Part shown: one piece after another, positions 2,458 through 6,567 of the stretch | How positions within the stretch are numbered: position 1 is the stretch's first letter | How the letters are laid out: each line of letters opens with the position of its first letter | Source: a virus | Length of the DNA stretch: 39,051 bases | IMG/VR virus record: IMGVR_UViG_3300036717_000119 | Location: 1-39,051 of that record | Reading direction: 5' to 3' (one strand) | Translations under genes and position numbers: made by a program | Notes under the pieces: model-generated | Databases searched by the model: none | Seen by the model: the letters and a program-made list of their open reading frames with translations, nothing else | What the model was told of the DNA's origin: nothing

Positions 2458-3552
2458 TCACAAATTCAGGTAGGCGGTGATGAATTCCGCCGCGACTTGC
2501 GGCACAATTGCATTGCCGTAGCCCCGCAAGAGTCCCACGCGGCCGGGAATCCCATGAGCCAGCGGGAAAAACTCGGGTTCAGCTGGAATGCGCCGCGCTT
2601 TTCCGTCGCGACATTGGATGATTTGGAAATCAGACCATGGGCTTGGCGTGGCAATTGGTCCAACCGTCCCCGCGTCGTCCCGTCTGGATTCGTGCCCGTT
2701 TCGGACATTCCCGGCGAGTCCTTCCAATCCCGGCTTGATGCTGTCGCCCAAGGCGACAGCATGGCCACTTGCTGACTCAACGGCTTCCCGGTGTCCTGCG
2801 GTCGCGGCGGCAGACTTCCCCGGCTGCCGTCCTGCGCTGTTGGACTGACCCAGGGCACCAGCTGTGCGACCGCTCCCAGTCCGTGTCCGCTGCTGCTGTC
2901 CAGTGGTGCATTTGGCGACCACTCCTTGCCGTCCTTGGCCTTGGTTGTCGGCCACCCAATACAATCGCTGCCGCTTGTGGGGCGCGCCGACGCTGTGTGC
3001 TCCAATAATCGTAGCCCCGCCGGCGTAACCCGCGCTTGCCAAGTCTGCCGATATTCCATCGAGCCAGCGGCGGTGAAAATGGAGCGAATCGCATTTGATA
3101 AGCGCGTTTGCAATTCTATTTGCTCTGGCGAAGTCGCCGCTTTGAACCGCGTTAACGAAAGCAGCTTCAAGCTGCGTGCCGACAACTTCTGTGGATGCGA
3201 CTTGCTCGCCGAAAACGGTTTGCGGGCGACACTCGCGGATGAGTCGGAAACCTTGGGGCCAGAGGTGGCGGGGGTCGTCTTGCGCTTGGCCTTTGCCGGC
3301 CGTGCTGAAAGGCTGGCAGGGACAGGACATGGTCCAGACTTCCCGGTCTTCTGGCCATCCGGCGAGGCGGAGTGTGAGCGGCCAGCCGGCGACCCCTCCG
3401 AAAAAATGGCATTGTTTGTATCCCACAAGGTCAATTGATTTGACATCTTTTATACTCCTTTCATCGACGTAGCCGGCCGGAATTTCACCTGCTTTAATGA
3501 GTTCTCGAATCCAGGCGGCCGCTTTTGAATCAAATTCATTGTAGTAGTTCAC
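2458..3552 (-). CDS. DNA cytosine C5-methyltransferase (Dcm-like)
   Basis: It would methylate cytosine C5 using S-adenosylmethionine. Visible motifs are a motif I-like HFFGGVAGW (49-57), the catalytic PCQPFSTAGKG (78-88, Cys79), a motif VI variant GEQV in place of ENV (115-118), the motif VIII-like KRQRLYWVA, and the C-terminal GNAIVPQVAAEF. Residues about 205-290 are low-complexity Gly/Thr/Gln/Arg, where the target-recognition domain should be. The start is GTG at 3552 with GGAG upstream, overlapping the previous stop by 4 nt. Nearly all of its length is overlapped by a second long ORF in the +1 frame, which may explain the odd composition of its middle part. Confidence 0.92.
   Translation of the reverse strand: MNYYNEFDSKAAAWIRELIKAGEIPAGYVDERSIKDVKSIDLVGYKQCHFFGGVAGWPLTLRLAGWPEDREVWTMSCPCQPFSTAGKGQAQDDPRHLWPQGFRLIRECRPQTVFGEQVASTEVVGTQLEAAFVNAVQSGDFARANRIANALIKCDSLHFHRRWLDGISADLASAGYAGGATIIGAHSVGAPHKRQRLYWVADNQGQGRQGVVAKCTTGQQQRTRTGSGRTAGALGQSNSAGRQPGKSAAATAGHREAVESASGHAVALGDSIKPGLEGLAGNVRNGHESRRDDAGTVGPIATPSPWSDFQIIQCRDGKARRIPAEPEFFPLAHGIPGRVGLLRGYGNAIVPQVAAEFITAYLNL
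2466..3446 (-). CDS. Overprinted ORF within the cytosine methylase gene (326 aa)
   Basis: This frame, +1 relative to the methylase, is open for 326 codons and ends 8 nt before the methylase stop. Its ATG at 3446 lies 8 nt behind a near-perfect AAAGGAG inside the methylase coding sequence, better than the methylase's own site. The protein begins MSNQLTLWDTNNAIFS, is rich in Ser/Thr/Pro/Ala/Arg, carries WPTTKAKDGKEWSP and WVSPTAQDGS segments, and ends with LNPSFSRWLMGFPAAWDSC and a basic tail. From memory, proteins with the same plan (LTLWDTT start, WPTPT-D repeats, LNP..SRWLMG..P end) are commonly annotated as hypothetical proteins next to or within phage methylases. I infer a real translated gene; function unknown. 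Confidence 0.6.
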   Translation of the reverse strand: MSNQLTLWDTNNAIFSEGSPAGRSHSASPDGQKTGKSGPCPVPASLSARPAKAKRKTTPATSGPKVSDSSASVARKPFSASKSHPQKLSARSLKLLSLTRFKAATSPEQIELQTRLSNAIRSIFTAAGSMEYRQTWQARVTPAGLRLLEHTASARPTSGSDCIGWPTTKAKDGKEWSPNAPLDSSSGHGLGAVAQLVPWVSPTAQDGSRGSLPPRPQDTGKPLSQQVAMLSPWATASSRDWKDSPGMSETGTNPDGTTRGRLDQLPRQAHGLISKSSNVATEKRGAFQLNPSFSRWLMGFPAAWDSCGATAMQLCRKSRRNSSPPT

Positions 3553-4488: not shown

Positions 4489-5164
4489 GGATGGATTGCC
4501 AGTTGGCGGTGATTGAGTGCAGGATGGCTTTTAGGGCGCGCTCCGGTCCCATGGCTTCGAGGGCTTTGATTTGCGCCTCAGCTGAGATGATCGTCGGTGT
4601 TTTTCGGAGTTGTTTCAGGTGTTCGAGCCATTTTCTCCATGCGTCTTGAATTGCCGGCGAGTTGATGGACGGGGGCAGCTTGTAGGGGTCGGATGGTGCT
4701 ACAGCTTCTGGAAAATCATTAGAGCCGATGCTACAAGCATGCTCCAAGCAATGTTTGTCTCCTATACTGTCTTTATTTGGAGACGGAGACGGAGACGGAG
4801 ACGGAGACGGAGACGGAGACGGAGAGCTTTTTCTAGGTTCGCTTCCAGAAACCACTAGGTTATCACTAGCTTTCCTAGGCCTTCCACCTAGCTTTCCGTT
4901 TTTTGCCCTACTTTCCCTGAAAATACGCTGTTTTTTTCGCTCGAACTCCAGCCGCTTGTTTTTTCCGCCTGGGAACTTGCTCAAAACATGCTCGGAAACT
5001 TCACCCTTCGCCACGATTTTCATACGCGAAACATCCTCCGAAAGTTTGCCCACAGACCACTGGTGGCAAAGCAGTAGGATATAAGCCCCGACCTCCTCTT
5101 GTGTCATGGTCGAAACACCAGACACGAAATCGTCGGGATAGAATTGAAAAGCAGGTGGATTCAT
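4352..5164 (-). CDS. DUF1376-type replication protein
   Basis: The N-terminus MNPPAFQFYPDDFVSGVSTMTQEEVGAYILLLCHQW is the DUF1376 hallmark, a winged-helix-like phage domain usually found beside a helicase loader and thought to act in replication initiation. ATG at 5164 is chosen because family members start at this point; an in-frame GTG at 5185 would add 7 residues, and neither has a strong ribosome-binding site. After a basic segment (RESRAKNGKLGGRPRKAS) comes a run of Ser-Pro dipeptides coded by a hexanucleotide repeat. The C-terminal half has a helical segment (AWRKWLEHLKQLRKTP) typical of the second domain of these proteins. A 124-nt leader with a likely promoter lies upstream. Confidence 0.88.
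   Translation of the reverse strand: MNPPAFQFYPDDFVSGVSTMTQEEVGAYILLLCHQWSVGKLSEDVSRMKIVAKGEVSEHVLSKFPGGKNKRLEFERKKQRIFRESRAKNGKLGGRPRKASDNLVVSGSEPRKSSPSPSPSPSPSPSPSPNKDSIGDKHCLEHACSIGSNDFPEAVAPSDPYKLPPSINSPAIQDAWRKWLEHLKQLRKTPTIISAEAQIKALEAMGPERALKAILHSITANWQSIHEPDHKSKNGIKPNPRNFGTGVDAAAQGREIVEHLKRIAASETPT
4779..4826 (-). repeat. Hexanucleotide repeat (GGAGAC)n coding for Ser-Pro
   Basis: Seven perfect GGAGAC units and one GGAGAG, read on the minus strand as alternating Ser-Pro codons in the linker of the DUF1376 protein. Changes in unit number keep the frame. Confidence 0.95.
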
Positions 5165-6339: not shown

Positions 6340-6567
6340 TCAGTTTCCGTAGCCGTAGCCGTCGCCGTAGCCGTCGCCGGAGCCGTAGCCGTAGCCGTCG
6401 CCGTCGCCGTAGCCGGAGCCGGAGCCGGAGCCGTAGCCGTAGCCGTAGCCGTAGCCGGAGCCGTAGCCGTCGCCGTCGCCGGAGCCGTAGCCGTAGCCGT
6501 AAACGGAGCGGTCGCCGGAGCCGTCGCCGGAGCCGTCGCCGTCCAGTGTTACCAGTTGCGTGAGCAT
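6340..6567 (-). CDS. Gly/Tyr/Asp/Ser dipeptide-repeat protein (75 aa)
   Basis: From ATG 6567 the protein reads MLTQLVTLDGDGSGDGSGD and then strict alternation of Gly with Tyr, Asp or Ser until the stop. It is coded by a hexanucleotide array. It overlaps the upstream gene by 19 nt. I recall similar short GYGDGSG-type ORFs beside WGTT.GLGEL proteins in other phages, which argues for a real gene, but no ribosome-binding site is evident and the repeat could be non-coding. Frame conservation is indirect support: every unit keeps Gly in this frame with no stop. Function unknown; possibly disordered or self-associating. Confidence 0.45.
   Translation of the reverse strand: MLTQLVTLDGDGSGDGSGDRSVYGYGYGSGDGDGYGSGYGYGYGYGSGSGSGYGDGDGYGYGSGDGYGDGYGYGN
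6347..6543 (-). repeat. Hexanucleotide array (GCCGTA/GCCGTC/GCCGGA)n
   Basis: About 33 consecutive 6-nt units starting CCGTAGCCGTAGCCGTCGCC. The third and sixth positions vary among a few bases, giving Gly-Tyr, Gly-Asp or Gly-Ser in the minus frame. There are several direct sub-repeats of GTAGCC. Confidence 0.95.

Follow-up and report, generated by a model that had tools for sequence, protein, structure and literature searches.

A phage cytosine-5 DNA methyltransferase that is very likely split between two almost completely overlapping reading frames

The methylase locus analyzed here very likely encodes a split cytosine-5 DNA methyltransferase, in which frame 0 provides a catalytic alpha subunit and the +1 frame a nested beta subunit bearing target recognition and motif IX. 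The locus is located on an IMG/VR virus record that carries terminase and portal genes; the whole stretch of 39,051 nt that was analyzed is called the window below. The catalytic frame is a C5-cytosine methyltransferase ORF of 364 codons with a GTG start on the minus strand (positions 2458-3552), which matches Pfam PF00145 (4e-14) and phrog_363 (4e-69). The proposed beta subunit is encoded by a gene of 326 codons with an ATG start on the same strand (2466-3446), which matches phrog_1008 (4e-21) and shows in-phase conservation and purifying selection. Inspection of the sequence bore out what the original prediction had described: the nested ORF, in phase +1 and at offset 106, runs without a stop over 90% of the methylase gene and ends 8 nt ahead of the methylase stop, its ATG is preceded at 8 nt by AAAGGAG (3455-3461, minus strand), and the methylase frame reads GNAIVPQV and the second frame LNPSFSRWLMGFP.

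By itself, the open frame in the window is only suggestive, because the +1 frame also stays open in 0.9% of cases when the synonymous codons of the methylase are shuffled (3.5 stops expected). At 104 related loci the expectation is about 3.6 stops each, yet the +1 frame is open in almost all of them, a count made on loci that are related to each other and in the majority were found via the second frame itself. Every locus returned by a search with the nested protein has the nested frame open, in the same phase and inside a methylase. Because a search of this kind is biased, loci were also chosen by their methylase, and in this unbiased test the nested ORF was present in the same phase in 98 of 99 loci, the single exception being a 23-codon fragment at a contig end. 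A third sample consisted of the 119 sites obtained by searching for the methylase motif GRVA[DH]GxPxRV with free third bases. A nested W(V)EWLMG-type motif is encoded at 117 of these sites, and in 92 of the 94 clear methylases of this sample the nested ORF reaches 150 codons or more (its median is 273 codons, that of frame +2 is 17). At conserved methylase residues the codons are restricted, with GGG at Gly334 in 58 of 58 cases, GCT at Ala185 in 48 of 54 and GTT at Val118 in 56 of 61, these loci having been partly selected via the nested frame. A few contigs were sampled twice, which was corrected in the substitution analysis of pairs described below; the other counts may include a few duplicates. 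Relatives with an intact methylase and a broken second frame, which would speak against a nested gene, were searched for, and nearly all relatives had kept the frame. The overlap arrangement is maintained over deep divergence in hundreds of phages and in prophages from many bacterial phyla, and the nested frame is kept likewise in bacterial genomes, which mostly represent presumed prophages. Thus, the nested 326-codon ORF is a real, conserved gene.

The two sites of the third sample that do not encode the nested motif are L518, which shows no sign of a methylase, and L476. The latter was considered as a loss of the nested frame, and this was rejected: near position 7918 of L476 the WVEWLMG motif is the exact site of an inserted small cysteine-rich ORF, which forms a fusion with the nested frame. 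For this short zinc-finger-like ORF no confident Pfam family was found. Abundant proteins with LNPxWVEWLMG, expected to stand alone as separate genes, did not do so: 118 of 120 overlap a C5 methylase.

The frame-specific substitutions in relatives were analyzed by classing isolated substitutions in pairs of related loci by their effect in each frame (106 pairs, near-duplicates removed). In the overlap, the rates were 0.0037 for changes altering both proteins, 0.0200 for changes in the methylase only, 0.0388 for changes in the nested protein only and 0.0923 for changes in neither, and in control genes from the same loci the corresponding rates, taken with their +1 frame, were 0.0035, 0.0030, 0.0687 and 0.0299. 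Methylase-only changes are therefore 5.5 times (4.6-6.5) as frequent as changes altering both proteins, compared with 0.85 times in the control genes. Stops in the +1 frame arise freely in the control genes; since the pair analysis excludes nested-frame stops by construction, their scarcity was not counted as evidence in it. Protein changes in the second frame are thus avoided, unlike in the control genes, and both frames are under protein-level selection.

The constraint is not distributed evenly. Before motif VIII (region A) constraint is stronger on the methylase and weak but measurable on the nested frame (NS/NN 3.2, 2.6-3.9, versus 0.85 in control genes; SS/SN 1.7); over its first ~100 codons the nested protein shows weak conservation and modest constraint. 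In the variable region between motifs VIII and IX (2650-2931, minus strand) the order is reversed, with rates of 0.049 for methylase-only and 0.014 for nested-only changes (ratio 3.5, 2.6-4.6), and this reversal is also seen when only window-type relatives are used (ratio 2.9, 2.1-3.8). Around motif IX both frames are constrained. Hence, the constraint in the target-recognition region lies in the +1 frame. Taken together, conservation, codon restriction, frame-specific substitution and the start-site signals presented below strongly support the claim of the original prediction that one DNA stretch encodes two proteins.

The conserved motifs of a C5 methylase are divided between the two frames. 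The annotated methylase frame contains motifs I-VIII and X and is without motif IX. They include motif IV, PCQPFS with the catalytic Cys (3304-3321, minus strand; invariant columns in the translation), and motif VIII, GAPHKRQR (2965-2988, minus strand), placed by translation and alignment. Taken alone, frame 0 has the PCQ of motif IV and the AdoMet-binding fold expected of a C5-methyltransferase, and does not have motif IX in the same chain. The second frame has a C5-methylase motif IX (LNPSFSRWLMGFP). The 61-residue IX-X module of single-frame C5-MTases was used as a profile: its first third matches the nested protein (LNPSFSRWLMGFPAAW, 2535-2582, minus strand; probability 96.5, E 8e-10) and its second half matches the methylase frame (GNAIVPQVA, motif X, RVGLLRGYGNAIVPQVA, 2491-2541, minus strand; probability 78.7, E 2e-5). 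In the methylases of some phages, such as Mycobacterium phages Magnar (gp43) and Starcevich (gp69), motif IX (L.P.F.EWMMG.P.GWVT) is followed by motif X (LGNGVVPQQA) in one frame. By these profile matches, motif IX of the nested protein and motif X of the methylase are the two halves of one single-frame MTase module. The module weakly resembles plant DRM C5-methyltransferases (E 0.012), and none of 112 nested proteins gave a DNA_methylase Pfam match.

The AF2 models are in line with this division. Methylase residues 1-207 form a confident M.HhaI-like domain that matches M.HhaI structures in the PDB, and residues 208-301 (pLDDT ~35) and 328-344 are disordered, so that the variable region combines disorder of the methylase chain with constraint on the nested one. 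The nested protein is predicted with low overall confidence (pLDDT 61.6, pTM 0.31). Its conserved core, codons 101-160 (2967-3146, minus strand), with conserved G128, S129 and W136, is mostly at pLDDT 74-91 and is predicted to form a helix and a beta hairpin. It is followed by W-x-TP-type (xTP) modules at codons ~165-267 (2646-2954, minus strand; conserved W165, T167 and W233), which we propose to be target-recognition modules. The model of the nested protein had no PDB fold match, its viral matches being family members, and for this reason and because of the low AF2 confidence a recognition fold is not seen in it.

The location of the motifs in relatives provides a further line of evidence. 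The frames were clearly resolved at 54 P.FVEWMMG loci. At 28 of these the nested frame holds motif IX, at 23 the motif shares one frame with everything else, and at 3 it is split off along with motif X. The nested gene is therefore not always the carrier of motif IX, as the P.FVEWMMG-type motif lies in the methylase frame in 23 of the 54 loci. On a tree of the catalytic domain the layouts of motif IX changed several times, with a minimum of 7 changes for three states, some of the 'split' labels being loose, since no motif X was detected for them. Of the 27 methylases with an in-frame motif IX, 24 have their xTP modules in the nested frame, and the other 3, natural fusions (L582, L618 and Mycobacterium phage Starcevich gp69), have them in the methylase frame between motifs VIII and IX. 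In Gordonia phage Camerico (L575), gp38 terminates downstream of motif VIII, and motifs IX and X are found in gp39, which follows it in +1; this may reflect either a split enzyme or a frameshift. Other irregularities were also observed. At L074 (2829-3893), nested-type xTP peptides are read in the methylase frame over one segment, as if the frames had been exchanged by compensating indels, and L103 and L105 have a frameshift in the methylase. L098 has an insertion in the overlap (2900-3461) with a 176-aa ORF in the nested frame and the methylase frame open throughout; by eye this ORF resembles an HNH-type nuclease, reminiscent of the ShiLan domain discussed below, and it had no Pfam match.

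Based on this, the following arrangement is proposed. Frame 0 would give rise to alpha, in which the domain for catalysis and AdoMet binding (motifs I-VIII) is linked to motif X through a segment whose coding constraint has been lost. The +1 frame, with its own AAAGGAG-ATG start, would give rise to beta, consisting of a short helix-hairpin core, W-x-TP-type modules in place of a target-recognition domain, and motif IX. The two chains would assemble into one active enzyme for the methylation of phage DNA, with the xTP modules of beta selecting the sites, and this methylation would probably protect the phage against host restriction. The second protein is very probably the DNA-recognition part of the methylase. 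The original prediction had proposed that it acts with the methylase, for example as a specificity or anti-host factor: motif IX, the constrained recognition-region frame and the fusions argue for the former, and the latter found no support.

How the nested protein is made bears on this arrangement. For the Shine-Dalgarno sequence AAAGGAG, an anti-SD pairing of -8.2 kcal/mol is predicted. When the best start close to the expected position was taken from each of 94 relatives chosen by their methylase, the pairing was -5.8 kcal/mol, versus -3.2 kcal/mol in synonymous-randomised controls (Wilcoxon 5e-12, a p value that is too small since the loci are related). It is conceivable, although unlikely, that ribosomes undergo a programmed +1 shift downstream of motif VIII and so produce a fused chain of motifs I-VIII, xTP modules and motif IX, and that the nested frame has no start of its own. 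This would fit the natural fusions, in which these pieces are contiguous in one frame, and Camerico, where gp38 stops after motif VIII and the next frame holds IX and X. However, constraint on the nested protein extends to the part before motif VIII (the region A ratio of 3.2), which a frameshift product would not use, the nested start and its Shine-Dalgarno sequence are under selection, and the fusion would be without motif X unless alpha were made as well. Because of the selected SD pairing and the constraint before motif VIII, independent initiation is favored over a programmed frameshift, and beta is presumably translated from its own start in vivo.

Two further explanations concern the nested protein itself. 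It could be real but act alone, for instance as a regulator or host-takeover factor that merely shares the DNA of the methylase. The protein is conserved as such, and the searches found no solved fold or characterised homologue of it, both of which would be compatible with this idea. We nevertheless regard it as improbable: the protein bears the motif IX that the methylase frame is without, its modules occur fused into methylases, and among loci selected through the nested frame it was found only overlapping a C5 methylase. The idea that the ORF is a functionless by-product of methylase codon usage and base composition is more improbable still. The chance of an open frame in the window alone is not negligible, and annotators often record one frame only, but the conservation in 98 of 99 loci, the fixation of codons and the reversed constraint in the variable region stand against it; a chance ORF is ruled out by conservation, codon restriction and a substitution pattern that differs from that of control genes.

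Two-polypeptide C5-methyltransferases are known, among them M.EaeI and M.EcoHK31I, the latter with specificity YGGCCR. Lee, Kam and Shaw are said to have described in 1995 that the small-subunit gene of M.EcoHK31I lies inside the large-subunit gene in another frame, and the small gene of the window is likewise nested in the large one. In M.EcoHK31I, which like M.AquI is a two-polypeptide enzyme, the smaller chain holds only motif IX, and the large subunit has motifs I-VIII and X and is predicted to contain the recognition domain (PMC3404938). Compared by description, the window shows the same division, its large frame having I-VIII and X without IX and its small frame having IX, and by these motif descriptions M.EcoHK31I appears to be the closest known system. 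Unlike in M.EcoHK31I, the constraint in the window would place recognition in the nested frame, and the pair is a phage gene in a replication-gene neighborhood, with no restriction enzyme found among the neighbor genes examined. M.AquI is split inside the variable region, and its small chain comprises the distal variable region, IX and X (PMC3404938). The window pair would resemble it as a C5 enzyme in two chains divided in the variable region, but keeps motif X on the large chain and has almost completely overlapping genes; closer to M.AquI is the layout of Camerico. The single-frame phage enzymes Magnar gp43 and Starcevich gp69 share a homologous catalytic domain and the IX-X module with the window pair, but have IX and X, and in Starcevich gp69 also the xTP modules, in one frame.

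Other phage methylase genes with a second frame are also relevant. The 'Mte8-like protein' ORF28 of K1ind2, one of the E. coli K1-independent phages, is an annotated nested ORF at the same place in a C-specific methylase; in the papers searched we found the name only, and no function. The ShiLan domain is an HNH endonuclease encoded out of frame by a mobile insertion in a phage methylase gene (PMC11855218). The window similarly has a second protein out of frame within a phage methylase gene, but the ShiLan domain is a removable nuclease insert outside the enzyme, whereas the nested ORF of the window spans the conserved methylase itself; P0001, a protein of the overlap locus, gave no HNH family match. 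A literature search on overlapping reading frames in phage methylases found nothing on this nested-frame family.

Long same-strand overlapping genes in which both frames are selected are rare and disputed in bacteria and phages; in the overlap described here, the constraint shifts between the frames over the length of the gene. Databases usually list one of the two proteins, some frame 0 only and some the nested frame only, and a few list both. Both frames are recorded for K1ind2 (ORF29 and ORF28), fTaEco01 and the Xanthomonas PhiXhv phages; the nested frame alone is annotated in OM373202 (CrLKS3 g58), HQ711985 (PMG1_57) and MT161385 (FoX4 gp11). CrLKS3 and the RefSeq version of PMG1 name the nested product methyltransferase and omit the catalytic frame. 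Compared with M.EcoHK31I, what would be new is how widely the arrangement occurs among phages, the placement of target recognition in the nested frame, and the movement of modules between frames. We consider it reasonably likely that a large group of C5-methyltransferases from phages, recorded for decades as single genes, are two-subunit enzymes encoded in two fully overlapping frames with a nested recognition domain, and that motif IX and the recognition modules have moved between frames, so that phages could alter specificity by swapping nested modules, a change to which the catalytic frame is passively tolerant. Should the enzyme indeed be split in this way, many phage methylase annotations describe half an enzyme, and an annotated gene recoded for synthesis would lose its second subunit and yield an inactive protein. 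The natural fusions would then make the split testable.

The genes adjoining the methylase locus encode a D12-type adenine methylase, a DnaC-like loader and a replication protein. Several repeats were observed in the window. A 42-bp tandem repeat of 3.2 copies (1896-2029) lies within the D12 adenine methylase gene and repeats the peptide LVHLGDSGRGVNRK. The hexanucleotide GGAGAC, in ~8 copies (4779-4825), encodes Ser-Pro repeats of the replication protein, and the hexanucleotide CCGTAG is present in ~33 copies (6347-6542). Finally, a 15-bp tandem repeat (GTGCGGATTTGCGCG-like) of the same kind is found at both contig ends (1-305 and 38846-39051); it is possibly part of a pentapeptide-repeat gene, and the contig may represent a genome, circular or longer, that was interrupted within this repeat.
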